From an uncultured Spirochaetia bacterium (lineage in GTDB: Bacteria; Spirochaetota; Spirochaetia; CAKZLE01), in contig CAKZLE010000036.1 of NCBI GenBank assembly GCA_937125225.1, positions 1-64,000 on the forward strand: a DNA stretch of 64,000 nt, read 5' to 3'. The position numbers were made by a program, and so were the translations under genes. Below are positions 31,767 to 36,579 of the stretch, piece after piece. The notes below the pieces were generated by a model, which was not told the DNA's origin, searched no databases, and saw only the letters and a program-made list of their open reading frames with translations. Numbering within the stretch: the stretch's first letter is position 1; each line of letters starts with the position of its first letter.

Positions 31767-31798
31767 AAGCGGGTCTATCTATATGAATAGACCTGCTT
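31767..31798 (-). terminator. Terminator/attenuator between rnpA and yidC
   Basis: A 12-bp stem with one G-U pair (31767-31778 and 31787-31798) and an 8-base loop overlaps the last codons of rnpA. On the minus strand it is followed by TTATTTTTTAT. It probably lowers read-through into yidC. Confidence 0.7.
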
Positions 31799-32123
31799 TT
31801 TCTACGAGTTTACAAAATTGCTTTTTACATATTGTGTAATCATATTCATTACCTGGATAGATAATAAAAGCTATATCATAGCCATGCCCAAGAAAGGAAT
31901 ACCCCTTTCGGAAGATCTCTTTGCATCTTCTTCTAACAGTATTCCTCTGAACAGCATTGCCAAATTTCTTAGCTGGTATGATAATGATTCTTGGAAAATC
32001 CAGTCCATTTTGTACACAGACTAATTTATATCCTCGAACCGATACTATCTTTCCTTCCTTGAAAATACGACTAATATCAGACTTTTTTCTAACAATCTGA
32101 TGTTTAGTAAGGTTTTTTCTCAT
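31779..32123 (-). CDS. rnpA: Ribonuclease P protein component
   Basis: A 114-residue basic protein that binds the RNase P RNA for tRNA 5' maturation. The signature is partly divergent: [20 protein letters not shown] corresponds to the RNR motif. The start is the ATG of [11 protein letters not shown], which lies inside the 3' end of rpmH (20-base overlap in another frame). A longer frame starting upstream would merely re-read rpmH. Confidence 0.92.
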
Positions 32124-32259
32124 CACAGACTGAGAGTTTCTTTCGACCCTTTTTTCTTCTTCTTGCAAGAACAAGGCGTCCACCTTTAGTCTTCATTCGC
32201 GCTCTGAAACCGAATTTTCTATTTCTCTTTACTTTACTTGGTTGATACGTTCTTTTCAT
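32104..32259 (-). CDS. rpmH: 50S ribosomal protein L34
   Basis: 51 residues beginning [18 protein letters not shown] and continuing through the canonical Arg/Lys-rich L34 helix. The C terminus carries an extra acidic-polar tail (VCDEKKPY) beyond the usual end, produced by the overlap with rnpA. It leads the rpmH-rnpA-yidC-jag cluster. Confidence 0.95.
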
Positions 32260-32339
32260 CCTAGGATATTCTCCATTATATCATCGCTTACGCGGAATTT
32301 TTCTCTTATACTTACTAAGTACACATCATCGAGTGAGGA

Positions 32340-32368
32340 AGTATACTTTTCATAAATAATTTTGTCAA
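32340..32368 (-). promoter_or_regulatory. rpmH promoter
   Basis: On the minus strand TTGACA (32363-32368), 17 bp and TATACT (32340-32345) form a near-perfect sigma-70 promoter with a leader of about 70-75 bases to rpmH. The promoter lies within the duplicated block, and only about 20 bases beyond the predicted start belong to it. Confidence 0.8.
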
Positions 32369-32421
32369 CCCAACAAACATGCACATACCTGGACAGAAAC
32401 AATCAGTATATATCCATACTA

Positions 32422-32703
32422 TTAAACAACATAGGTTACAATTCTTTCAATATTCAACTCAGGGTATTTTTGATTCAATACACGTAATAACATTCTTTTC
32501 TTCAAGTCAATCATCTGCACCCAACCTGGATGATCCACATGAATAATTAATGAAGAGCCATCTAAATCATATATTATGGAGTGAGAAGCTATATTAGAAC
32601 CAGCTATCTCTTCCCAACTGTTGAAAAGAGAAATGACTTCATTATGTTCATTGATAGATATTGAAGAGAATATCTGTTCAATAAAATCTGCAGCTTTTTT
32701 CAT
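32422..32703 (-). CDS. dciA: DciA-like (DUF721) protein, left copy
   Basis: 93 residues. The DUF721 pattern WEEIAG-5-ASHS, the strand LIIHVDHPGWVQMIDLKK and the C-terminal helix match DciA, the ancestral loader of the DnaB replicative helicase. It is identical to the copy at 35222-35503. This copy follows a truncated recF fragment rather than an intact recF, so its expression depends on read-through from the IS side or on the hybrid upstream junction. Confidence 0.8.
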   Translation of the reverse strand: MKKAADFIEQIFSSISINEHNEVISLFNSWEEIAGSNIASHSIIYDLDGSSLIIHVDHPGWVQMIDLKKRMLLRVLNQKYPELNIERIVTYVV

Positions 32704-33016
32704 ATACTCTCCAATACTCCATCGGAAACCTTGAACGTTATATTATCAGTATTCTTCTCTTTGAAATATGATTCTTTTGGAAGAAATGTAAAAAAGGCTT
32801 GATCATAATCATATATATTCTCTAAGAATCTTTCTCTTTTGCTTATATCAAGTTCAAGTAGAACATCATCGAGAAGTAGAATAGGTCTATTTTTCATCAA
32901 ATTACCATATAAAACAGATTGAACTAATTTCATCACGATAGCAGTAAGTCTAATCTGTCCAGTAGAAGCGGTAGATATGAAATCTCTTTCATCTTGTATG
33001 AACATGAATTTATCTC
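32700..33016 (-). pseudogene. recF 3' fragment left by the IS insertion
   Basis: Encodes the C-terminal 101 residues of RecF from MFIQDERDF onward, including the signature/Walker B region (GQIRLTAIVMKL, LLLDDVLLELD), plus a few upstream codons up to the IS edge. It is identical to the intact gene further right. The IS junction creates AGGGAG eight bases before an internal ATG, so a RecF tail could be translated by chance. It still overlaps dciA by 4 bases. Confidence 0.85.
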
Positions 33017-33130
33017 CCTAATTTTGCAGCACGAAACAGCAGTACCAAGGAATAAGATTCTACTCTGGAATGAGTTAGAACTTTTTTTTGCACTTTTTGA
33101 AAACATATAACTGTCGTGGCATGTTGCGTA

Positions 33131-33159
33131 TTGTGCATCATTCTCTTTTATGGTATACT
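33131..33159 (+). promoter_or_regulatory. Transposase promoter
   Basis: TTGTGC (33131-33136), 17 bp and TATACT (33154-33159) precede the AGGAGG ribosome-binding site (33172-33177) of the transposase. Confidence 0.5.
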
Positions 33160-33183
33160 TTTAACTCATACAGGAGGGGTGCG

Positions 33184-35016
33184 GTGTACTTGAAAAAAAC
33201 TCAGCATAAGTCTGGTGACTTCTATCTTTCAATCGTTGAAGGGTATCGGGATGATCAGGGAAAATCTAAACAACGGACAATCCAGTCTATCGGCTACCTC
33301 TCACAGCTATCTCTGCAATACCAAGATCCTATTGCTCATTTCACCATGGTCGCTAAACAGATGACGGCCAAGAAACAGAAAGATACGGCTCCGGTTGTGC
33401 TGAAGTTCGACCCCTATCAGAAGCTTGATGCACAGAAGTCTCTTGAAACAGGACCAAACAGGAAGAATCTTGGTGCTCTTGCCCTCTCTACGGTCTACCA
33501 CCAGCTTGAACTTGACTACTTTATCAATAACCGCCGCAGGTATACCAAGGCCAGTTTCAACCATAACGCTATCCTGAGGCTCCTGACGTATGAACGGGTC
33601 CTCTTCCCCGGTTCAAAACGGTCAAACTGGCTCTCTCGAGGTCGGTACTTCGAGAAAATGGATTTCTCTCTTGATGATGTCTATCGGTCCTTACCGTTCT
33701 TCAACAGTCATCGTGATGCCCTGCTCTCACATCTGAATACCAAGATCACCGAACAGTATGGAAGAGACAACTCCATGCTTTTCTATGATGTGACAAATTA
33801 CTATTTCGAGATTGATGAAGAGGATGATCTCAGGAAGAAGGGCTTCTCAAAAGAACATCGTCCTGAGCCCATCATACAGATGGGGCTATTCATGGATGAA
33901 CAGGGAATTCCTGTCACCTATGATCTCTTTCCCGGGAATACTACTGACTGTAAGACCCTGAGACCTGTGATGAAAACGACCACAGAACAGTTCGGGATGA
34001 AGGACATGATCATCATCGCAGATATGGGGATGATGACCGGGGATAATAAGGGGCAGATCATCCTGGACCACAATGGCTACATCATCAGCTATTCGATCAG
34101 AAAGTCCACTGATGAGTTCAAGCAATGGGTACTCGGTCAAGATGATTACCAGTTCTCAGAAGATGCTCATACAGGAAAGGTGCTAAAGTTCAAGGAACGA
34201 TTGATTCCTAAAACTATCGCATTCAGTCCCTATACAGAAACGGGGGCATCTCATGCGAAGCGAAGAATCACCGTCAATGAACGACAGATCGTCTTCTACA
34301 GTGAGAAGTATGCGAGGAAGGCGAGAGCAGCACGGGAGAAGACCATCCTAAAGGCGAGAGAGCTGATCACTGATTCGACCAAACGGGGAAAACTCTATTC
34401 CCAGGGAGCTCGGAAGTATATCTCTGAAGTGTGTTTCGATGAGCAGGGAGAGGTGAAGGAAGACTTTTTGAGCGAATTACTCTTTGATGAAGAGAAACTC
34501 GCAGAAGAAGAACGATTTGATGGCTACTATGCCATCACGACTAATGTCTACGGAACATCCAAAGATCAACGTTCATTCAAAGGTCGTAGTAGATGGGAGG
34601 ATGGGAACTTTCTTGTGCTTAATCGGGAAGTGACAGCACGAGACATCATTGGGATGTATCGTGGGTTATGGGAGATCGAAGAGACCTTTAAGATCACTAA
34701 GAGTGTACTGCAATCCCGTCCAGTGTATGTGAGTAAATATGAACATATTCAAGCACATTTTCTTACGTGTTTTCTCGCACTCACCATCACTCGATTGCTT
34801 GATCATCAATTGTCTGGGAAGTACTATCCGGGACAGATTGCGGAGAGCCTTCGCAAGGCCTCGGGATCATATGTGGAGAATGGATATTATGTATTTGATT
34901 ACTATGACCAGATATTAGCAGATCTCGATAAGCAGCTTGGAACTGATTTCAGCCGAAAGTACCTCAAGCTTGGAGAAATTCGCTCTATGATAGGAAAAAC
35001 GAAAAAAGGTTGCTGA
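33184..35016 (+). CDS. IS1634-family DDE transposase
   Basis: 610 residues. It begins with the family-typical YLKKTQHKSGDFYLSIVEGY segment. The DDE triad is recognisable as Asp in FYDVTNYYF, Asp in IIIADMGM and Glu in GLWEIEETFKITKS. The start is the GTG 6 bases after AGGAGG; a longer frame to 33088 has no ribosome-binding site. The gene appears intact, so the element may still be mobile. Confidence 0.93.
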   Translation: MYLKKTQHKSGDFYLSIVEGYRDDQGKSKQRTIQSIGYLSQLSLQYQDPIAHFTMVAKQMTAKKQKDTAPVVLKFDPYQKLDAQKSLETGPNRKNLGALALSTVYHQLELDYFINNRRRYTKASFNHNAILRLLTYERVLFPGSKRSNWLSRGRYFEKMDFSLDDVYRSLPFFNSHRDALLSHLNTKITEQYGRDNSMLFYDVTNYYFEIDEEDDLRKKGFSKEHRPEPIIQMGLFMDEQGIPVTYDLFPGNTTDCKTLRPVMKTTTEQFGMKDMIIIADMGMMTGDNKGQIILDHNGYIISYSIRKSTDEFKQWVLGQDDYQFSEDAHTGKVLKFKERLIPKTIAFSPYTETGASHAKRRITVNERQIVFYSEKYARKARAAREKTILKARELITDSTKRGKLYSQGARKYISEVCFDEQGEVKEDFLSELLFDEEKLAEEERFDGYYAITTNVYGTSKDQRSFKGRSRWEDGNFLVLNREVTARDIIGMYRGLWEIEETFKITKSVLQSRPVYVSKYEHIQAHFLTCFLALTITRLLDHQLSGKYYPGQIAESLRKASGSYVENGYYVFDYYDQILADLDKQLGTDFSRKYLKLGEIRSMIGKTKKGC

Positions 35017-35139
35017 ACCACTACAGAAATATGTTTTCTTGATTACGCTATTATTCTTTTTCTGATATATAGTTGCATCCATTTTTTGTTGTTCTAACTG
35101 CAAAAGTCGAGTTACTAAGTACACATCATCGAGTGAGGA

Positions 35140-35168
35140 AGTATACTTTTCATAAATAATTTTGTCAA
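35140..35168 (-). promoter_or_regulatory. Orphan copy of the rpmH promoter facing the IS
   Basis: The same TTGACA-17-TATACT as at 32340-32368. Here the downstream gene is the transposase on the opposite strand, so the transcript would run antisense to it from its 3' end. Confidence 0.65.
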
Positions 35169-35221
35169 CCCAACAAACATGCACATACCTGGACAGAAAC
35201 AATCAGTATATATCCATACTA

Positions 35222-35503
35222 TTAAACAACATAGGTTACAATTCTTTCAATATTCAACTCAGGGTATTTTTGATTCAATACACGTAATAACATTCTTTTC
35301 TTCAAGTCAATCATCTGCACCCAACCTGGATGATCCACATGAATAATTAATGAAGAGCCATCTAAATCATATATTATGGAGTGAGAAGCTATATTAGAAC
35401 CAGCTATCTCTTCCCAACTGTTGAAAAGAGAAATGACTTCATTATGTTCATTGATAGATATTGAAGAGAATATCTGTTCAATAAAATCTGCAGCTTTTTT
35501 CAT
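35222..35503 (-). CDS. dciA: DciA-like (DUF721) protein, right copy in the recF operon
   Basis: 93 residues, identical to the left copy. Its start overlaps the recF stop by 4 bases (ATGA), the normal coupled arrangement dnaN-recF-dciA. It probably works with DnaA and the replicative helicase at oriC. Family assignment rests on the W-G-A-H pattern and genomic position. Confidence 0.85.
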   Translation of the reverse strand: MKKAADFIEQIFSSISINEHNEVISLFNSWEEIAGSNIASHSIIYDLDGSSLIIHVDHPGWVQMIDLKKRMLLRVLNQKYPELNIERIVTYVV

Positions 35504-36579
35504 ATACTCTCCAATACTCCATCGGAAACCTTGAACGTTATATTATCAGTATTCTTCTCTTTGAAATATGATTCTTTTGGAAGAAATGTAAAAAAGGCTT
35601 GATCATAATCATATATATTCTCTAAGAATCTTTCTCTTTTGCTTATATCAAGTTCAAGTAGAACATCATCGAGAAGTAGAATAGGTCTATTTTTCATCAA
35701 ATTACCATATAAAACAGATTGAACTAATTTCATCACGATAGCAGTAAGTCTAATCTGTCCAGTAGAAGCGGTAGATATGAAATCTCTTTCATCTTGTATG
35801 AACATGAATTTATCTCTATGAGGTCCTGAAGTCGTCATTTCATATTTTTTATCACGATTATAACTATTCTCAAGTATTCTAATGATATCTTCACTACAAT
35901 TTGTTGCCTTCCAAGAAGGATTATAGATTATAGTCACTGGTAAAGGATTTTCAGAAATCTTTTCATAAAGGGTTGGAAAAATCTCATTACATTTTTCTGT
36001 TATCCAAGTTCTCTGTCTTTGTATCTCCAATCCTATATCAGCAAGTTTTTTATTATAAATACCAATAAGAGATTCATCACCATTCTTGAGAAGAGCATTT
36101 CTTTGTTTGATAACAGCATTATATAATCTCATGCTATCTATATAGGGATTATTCAAAAGGGATATGGTTTGATCAAAGAATTTTCGTTGCATCATAGGAG
36201 ATCCATTCACATATTCCATATCCTCATGAGAGAATACAATACAGGTACAGATAGATAGCAACTCTTTTCTATCTTTTATTTCATTATCATTTATGTAAGT
36301 CTTTCTCTTACCATCTTTGAAAATGACTTTGATCTTATAAGTATTATCCCCATTCTTAATAGAGGCTATTACCGATAAATCATTTTTAGAAAATCTTGTT
36401 ATCTGCTTTTGAAGACGAGTTCTAAAAGATGACCCATAACAGGCAAAGTATATAGCTTCTATAAAATTTGATTTACCTTGTCCATTATCACCTACAAGGA
36501 GAACATGTTTATTAGAGGTATCAATGGTAGAATCAGATAGATTACGAAAATTATATGTTCTTAATGATTCAATGATCAT
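35500..36579 (-). CDS. recF: DNA replication and repair protein RecF
   Basis: A 359-residue SMC-like ATPase that helps load RecA at single-strand gaps. It shows Walker A GDNGQGKSN, the signature region TSTGQI-like (STASTGQIRL) and Walker B RPILLLDDVLLELD. It is intact despite the IS that carried away a copy of its last 101 codons. It starts 5 bases after the dnaN stop, in the same operon. Confidence 0.95.
   Translation of the reverse strand: MIIESLRTYNFRNLSDSTIDTSNKHVLLVGDNGQGKSNFIEAIYFACYGSSFRTRLQKQITRFSKNDLSVIASIKNGDNTYKIKVIFKDGKRKTYINDNEIKDRKELLSICTCIVFSHEDMEYVNGSPMMQRKFFDQTISLLNNPYIDSMRLYNAVIKQRNALLKNGDESLIGIYNKKLADIGLEIQRQRTWITEKCNEIFPTLYEKISENPLPVTIIYNPSWKATNCSEDIIRILENSYNRDKKYEMTTSGPHRDKFMFIQDERDFISTASTGQIRLTAIVMKLVQSVLYGNLMKNRPILLLDDVLLELDISKRERFLENIYDYDQAFFTFLPKESYFKEKNTDNITFKVSDGVLESI

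Follow-up and report, generated by a model that had tools for sequence, protein, structure and literature searches.

Long direct repeats flanking an IS1634-family insertion sequence in a spirochaete and its relatives, probably formed by target site duplication

DDE transposases are taught to duplicate a short stretch of target DNA of fixed length, set by the geometry of the transposition complex. According to the family descriptions in a 2008 review, members of the IS1634 family possess the DDE triad and a YREK-like motif that is usually without the arginine, carry inverted repeats with ends of the consensus C-----YT, and are typically flanked by direct repeats of 5–6 bp (PMC2266710). Their size is typically 1500–2000 bp, with no rule of exclusion. 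ISPfe2 of Paracoccus (PMC3281130) and ISGka5 of Geobacillus (PMC8024623), which share the family name, the DDE residues and a similar size with the element described here, each made a 6-bp duplication in transposition experiments. This typical length is matched neither by the present element nor by the name-giving elements. IS1549 from Mycobacterium smegmatis (Plikaytis et al. 1998) and IS1634 from Mycoplasma mycoides (Vilei et al. 1999) have variable repeats of 8–514 bp, and the same review states that their long variable duplications had yet to be given a mechanistic model (PMC2266710).

The window analysed here is a stretch of 64,000 nucleotides from an uncultured Spirochaetia bacterium (assembly GCA_937125225.1, contig CAKZLE010000036.1, positions 1 to 64,000). 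The region around its IS1634-family element contains the following features:

32104–32259, minus strand: rpmH with its original upstream sequence (open reading frame; order conserved in five relatives)
32312–33016, no strand: direct repeat, left copy, the probable target duplication (identity to 35112–35816; 704 bp if the element begins at 33016)
32340–32368, minus strand: promoter-like site TTGACA-17-TATACT upstream of rpmH, inside the duplication, with a second copy at 35140–35168 (consensus match only)
32422–32703, minus strand: dciA, second intact copy, joined to rpmH (open reading frame within the repeat, identical to the right copy)
32700–33016, minus strand: recF 3' remnant in the left repeat copy (open reading frame 32700–33005 identical to the recF C-terminus)
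33016–33033, plus strand: left inverted end (CCCTAATTTTGCAGC...), aligned to the right end via the TTTTGCAG core
33017–35111, plus strand: IS1634-family insertion sequence, 2095 bp, or 2096 if it starts at 33016 (edges from the repeats, NF033559 and the inverted ends)
33088–35016, plus strand: transposase open reading frame (homology from about 33193; DDE catalytic residues intact; model matches Tn5 transposase)
35094–35111, minus strand: right inverted end (reverse complement CTCGACTTTTGCAG...), from the inverted-end alignment
35112–35816, no strand: direct repeat, right copy (identity to 32312–33016)
35222–35503, minus strand: dciA, intact, joined to recF (Pfam DciA, E 6e-14)
35500–36579, minus strand: recF, intact (TIGR00611, E 1e-87), its 3' part within the right repeat copy

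An earlier note on this DNA had described identical 705-bp repeats abutting a 2095-bp element of IS1634 type, and both parts of this description hold. Aligned base by base, 32312–33016 and 35112–35816 are identical at 705/705 positions with 0 mismatches, and the identity goes no further, by even a single base, in either direction; the copies are offset by 2800, leave a segment of 2095 bp between them and end exactly at the edges of the element. A 705-bp identical repeat cannot have originated by chance. The imperfect inverted ends of the element read CCTAATTTTGCAG / CTCGACTTTTGCAG, and alignment of the core TTTTGCAG of both ends puts the first base of the element one base earlier, at 33016, so that the duplication proper may measure 704 bp, with one coincidental C at 33016 where the first base of the element equals the target base.

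The transposase open reading frame matches the NCBIfam IS1634 transposase model NF033559 with an E-value of 2e-101 and 340 bits, where the cut-off is 100. Residues D223, D301, E520 and K527 are conserved in the alignment, both in relatives with long and in relatives with short duplications, and L516 replaces the arginine of the YREK motif, which gives the combination of DDE triad and arginine-less YREK-like motif seen in the IS1634 family. The C-----YT form fits both element ends, CCTAATTT and CTCGACTT. The element is slightly larger than is typical, and the relatives measured here are about 1.7–2.3 kb in size. The complete YREK motif and the 7–13 bp direct repeats of the IS4 family sensu stricto were not found, the arginine being replaced by leucine and the repeat being 704/705 bp long.

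A structure model of the transposase made from aligned sequences (pLDDT 70), which replaces a single-sequence model of pLDDT 36, has as its best Foldseek match the Tn5 transposase (1MUH, E 1e-5, TM about 0.3–0.4). Tn5/IS50, of the IS4 family, is thus the best structural match at about 10% sequence identity, but the review gives 8–9 bp duplications for it (PMC2266710), as opposed to 704/705 bp here, and its YREK arginine is a leucine in the present transposase. Because the DDE residues are invariant and the model best matches the Tn5 transposase, the cut-and-join chemistry of the enzyme is likely to be ordinary. A sequence search of the PDB found no relative, and neither did a scan of viral contigs.

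In five related spirochaete genomes, of the same class as the host but not the same species, the order dnaA-dnaN-recF-dciA-rpmH-rnpA-yidC-jag is single-copy and uninterrupted; this comparison bears on the empty site that the earlier note had suggested looking for in sister strains. Candidatus Ornithospirochaeta (Spirochaetia) is among the first matches. The open reading frames and family matches bear out the earlier note's statement that the insertion left one recF-dciA pair and one dciA-promoter-rpmH series intact, the promoter being a consensus match: TTGACA-17-TATACT, with 11/12 consensus bases, is the region's best match to a promoter and lies 80–110 bp upstream of rpmH. No Rfam families were found within the window. 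The rnpA open reading frame overlaps rpmH out of frame (31779–32259), and RnpA similarity extends into rpmH in 5/5 relatives (L275–L279), which may reflect a conserved gene overlap.

Long repeats are also found around other copies and relatives of the element. The 65 independent insertions of relatives, sampled from Spirochaetota, Bacillota, Actinomycetota, Campylobacterota, Mycoplasmatota and one phage, have flanking repeats of 14–1018 bp with a median of 109. Repeats of at least 500 bp occur in 6/65 events, of which the window is the fourth longest, and the five events besides it that exceed 500 bp (582–1018 bp) all lie on complete or single-contig replicons. The earlier note, which had proposed measuring the repeats around other copies, presented this element as a very long case outside Mycoplasma; long duplications are in fact usual in much of the family, reach 1018 bp and extend over several phyla.

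In its own genome the window element is present once, together with two relatives of 42–43% protein identity. The relative on contig C24 has an exact 73-bp flanking repeat, and the one on contig C26 (L004:6862–9000), 81% identical to the C24 copy in DNA, has intact ends with no flanking repeat found. Genome G327, a single contig, holds four near-identical copies with repeats of 84, 111, 227 and 324 bp (one mismatch in the 324), and in the single contig G543 one element is flanked by repeats of 63, 105, 148, 854 and 1018 bp. Mycoplasmopsis has a 400-bp repeat around a copy on a complete plasmid and 44–256 bp around further copies, and a copy in a Streptococcus phage has 47 bp. A copy on the complete plasmid pCNAC48 of Aliarcobacter cryaerophilus (L113:1893–4991) is flanked by a 682-bp repeat with one mismatch; the duplication covers part of a gene and yields two annotated Crp/Fnr regulator genes. 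For several long-type copies elsewhere no flanking repeat was found.

Five copies are present in G282 (single contig). Repeats of 88, 118 and 237 bp flank three of them, and the other two (L057 and L087, at C1:273791 and C1:1542439) lack a repeat of their own. Between these two, the left flank of one shares 312 bp with the right flank of its counterpart, and the reverse pairing shares 178–179 bp, as left by a past inversion between the two copies that exchanged duplications already in place. Since copies of one element differ in repeat length and the inverted G282 copies bear each other's repeats, the repeats are evidently made upon insertion.

Some family members were seen in other forms. A nested insert of ~115 bp with a 10-bp repeat, apparently a small non-autonomous element, lies in one copy of a 309-bp duplication on a Carnobacterium maltaromaticum megaplasmid (L109:2534–2668). 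A divergent member in G841 (L211:2790–5287) has end segments of ~87 bp, three in tandem at both ends. G756 (single contig, 3.26 Mb) contains 85 family matches, mostly decayed fragments, which are traces of a burst of an IS1634-type element.

Relatives in two other genomes and on plasmids of Rhodococcus, Dietzia and Acidiphilium have duplications of 5–7 bp. In the transposase tree seven short-type rows stand apart from all 47 long-type rows with support 99/99; a called long duplication was the ground for including the long-type rows, so selection in part explains how cleanly the two groups divide. The split is taken from a smaller tree without the very divergent L257 and L267, whose long branches are unsafe. 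The short-type relatives measured here thus form a separate transposase branch, unlike the window element. Both kinds coexist in genome G597, where duplications of 147, 225 and 234 bp flank a long-type element and ones of about 6 bp flank copies of a divergent family member. It follows that the element rather than the host sets the duplication length. None of the long-type copies with clear ends but without a long repeat shows a 5–6 bp duplication. Since related elements in several bacterial groups do likewise, the habit of long duplication belongs to the element and not to the site in the window.

The 704/705-bp repeat is accordingly best read as the target site duplication of a single IS1634-family insertion, to which a probability of about 85% is given. 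The earlier note had proposed the same, and both the long repeats around other copies and relatives and the single-copy order in the five related genomes support it. The C26 copy and the several long-type copies that have no flanking repeat count against it.

Two other routes to the same structure are each very improbable. In one, two insertions in the same orientation, 705 bp apart on sister chromosomes, recombined unequally through the element to leave segment, element and segment. The product would be identical, and recombination between copies does occur, as in the inverted pair of G282, but two nearby insertions of equal orientation would be required every time. In G282, G327, G446 and G543 almost every copy has such flanking repeats, and of differing lengths; repeats of 28–60 bp would need insertions that close to each other, and the junctions keep bases specific to each end. 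The other, about equally improbable, is an assembly artefact, in which a short-read assembler doubled one repeat copy or merged two insertion variants present in a mixed population. The 16S gene of the source genome breaks at a contig edge, as is typical of short-read assemblies, which suggests an assembly of this type, and 705 bp is longer than short reads. Against this stand the 73-bp repeat around another copy in the same genome and the comparable lengths of 582–1018 bp in single-contig genomes and a complete plasmid. The structure at 32312–35816 is known from assembled sequence alone, and the general result on the relatives is independent of it. Least credible is a tandem duplication of the dciA region that came first, with the element then inserting at the seam: tandem duplications are common, with nothing specific in favour of one here, and the insertion would have to hit the exact base of the seam between copies without mismatch, in a region that is single-copy in five related genomes, with the identical coincidence needed in 65 cases. 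A repeat older than the element was rejected on the gene order of the relatives.

The two ends of the elements are joined to different target bases. The target next to the right end begins with A (42/65) followed by T (42/65), and the target next to the left end has C as its final base (38/65), often with T before it. The symmetric counterparts of these preferences are rare (Fisher p 2e-5 and 2e-6, 50 events), and the preferences persist after weighting by element and correction for the ambiguous terminal C; they are less clear in the longest events. That the right joint merely lies in more AT-rich DNA is unsupported, no difference in local AT content having been found between the joints (p 0.29). 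No helical phasing of 10–11 bp was found in the duplication lengths (p 0.15–0.59). The transposase gene opposes the replication fork in 30/43 closed-genome cases, with the origin taken from dnaA (p 0.014, post hoc), and this weak 30:13 bias against the direction of replication is at most a hint of fork association.

On the reading as a target site duplication, the transposase of this large part of the family, with its RNase-H/DDE, Tn5-like fold, would act without a fixed stagger of 5–6 bp. On one target strand, the right end of the element would be joined immediately 5' of an A/T-rich site (|AT); on the opposite strand, at a distance of tens to about 1000 bp, the left end would be joined beside a C (TC|). 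Filling-in by repair synthesis would then copy the entire stretch between the joints and leave an exact duplication; in the window the two joints would fall within recF and within the rpmH leader, so that recF, dciA and the rpmH promoter survive. Separately aimed strand transfers are inferred because the lengths are unphased over nearly two orders of magnitude, differ greatly for one and the same element, and are accompanied by different base preferences at the two ends. That the two transfers are sequential or uncoupled in this way is put at about even odds. Insertion at replication forks is suggested only, and the fuller picture, in which the ends integrate independently with their own preferences (|AT right, TC| left) into opposite strands of the opened DNA at moving forks, with no fixed stagger, is tentative.

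The effect on genes was evaluated at 57 reconstructed sites. In 29 of them a joint lies in an open reading frame of at least 100 codons of which an intact copy is kept, 17 lie between open reading frames, and 11 disrupt one; if duplications of these lengths are placed at random within their own regions, with mechanically called open reading frames, 12.8, 7.2 and 37 are expected, respectively. Chance would therefore give roughly three times as many disruptions as were observed (37 vs 11). Of the two joints, the one at the right end falls between open reading frames more frequently (18:7 among discordant pairs, p 0.04). The deficit is compatible with selection against disruption and with site preference alike. 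It had been proposed that a long duplication lets insertions into essential operons survive; this fits the disruption statistics, as a consequence of duplication length together with selection or site preference rather than as a demonstrated function.

The window element is an extreme case of a long-duplication type already known since 1998–99. It shares the transposase family of IS1634 and IS1549, and their long variable repeats, differing between copies, have their counterpart in the 705 bp found here and in the variation of 14–1018 bp among the relatives. The reported maximum was 514 bp and the hosts belong to other phyla; IS1634 and IS1549 are likened by description, and the Mycoplasmopsis relatives were compared directly. 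No report of repeats >514 bp, of the spread across the family or of asymmetric target bases was found in a literature search that left most subscription papers, including the originals of 1998–99, outside. The novelty of these three points is unproven; the asymmetric end preferences and the deficit of gene disruption look new.

With these data, what were two exceptions, IS1549 and IS1634, come to represent the normal behaviour of a large part of the family, and the reported maximum length is doubled. The ends are shown to see different target bases, and the idea that long duplications spare genes is backed by statistics. The mechanism is directly testable with the multi-copy elements of closed genomes, where long duplications also make inversions between element copies readable from one genome. 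Long duplications yield gene duplicates in one step, dciA here and part of a Crp/Fnr-type gene in Aliarcobacter. If the ends do integrate independently at forks, insertions into dense essential operons would become survivable.
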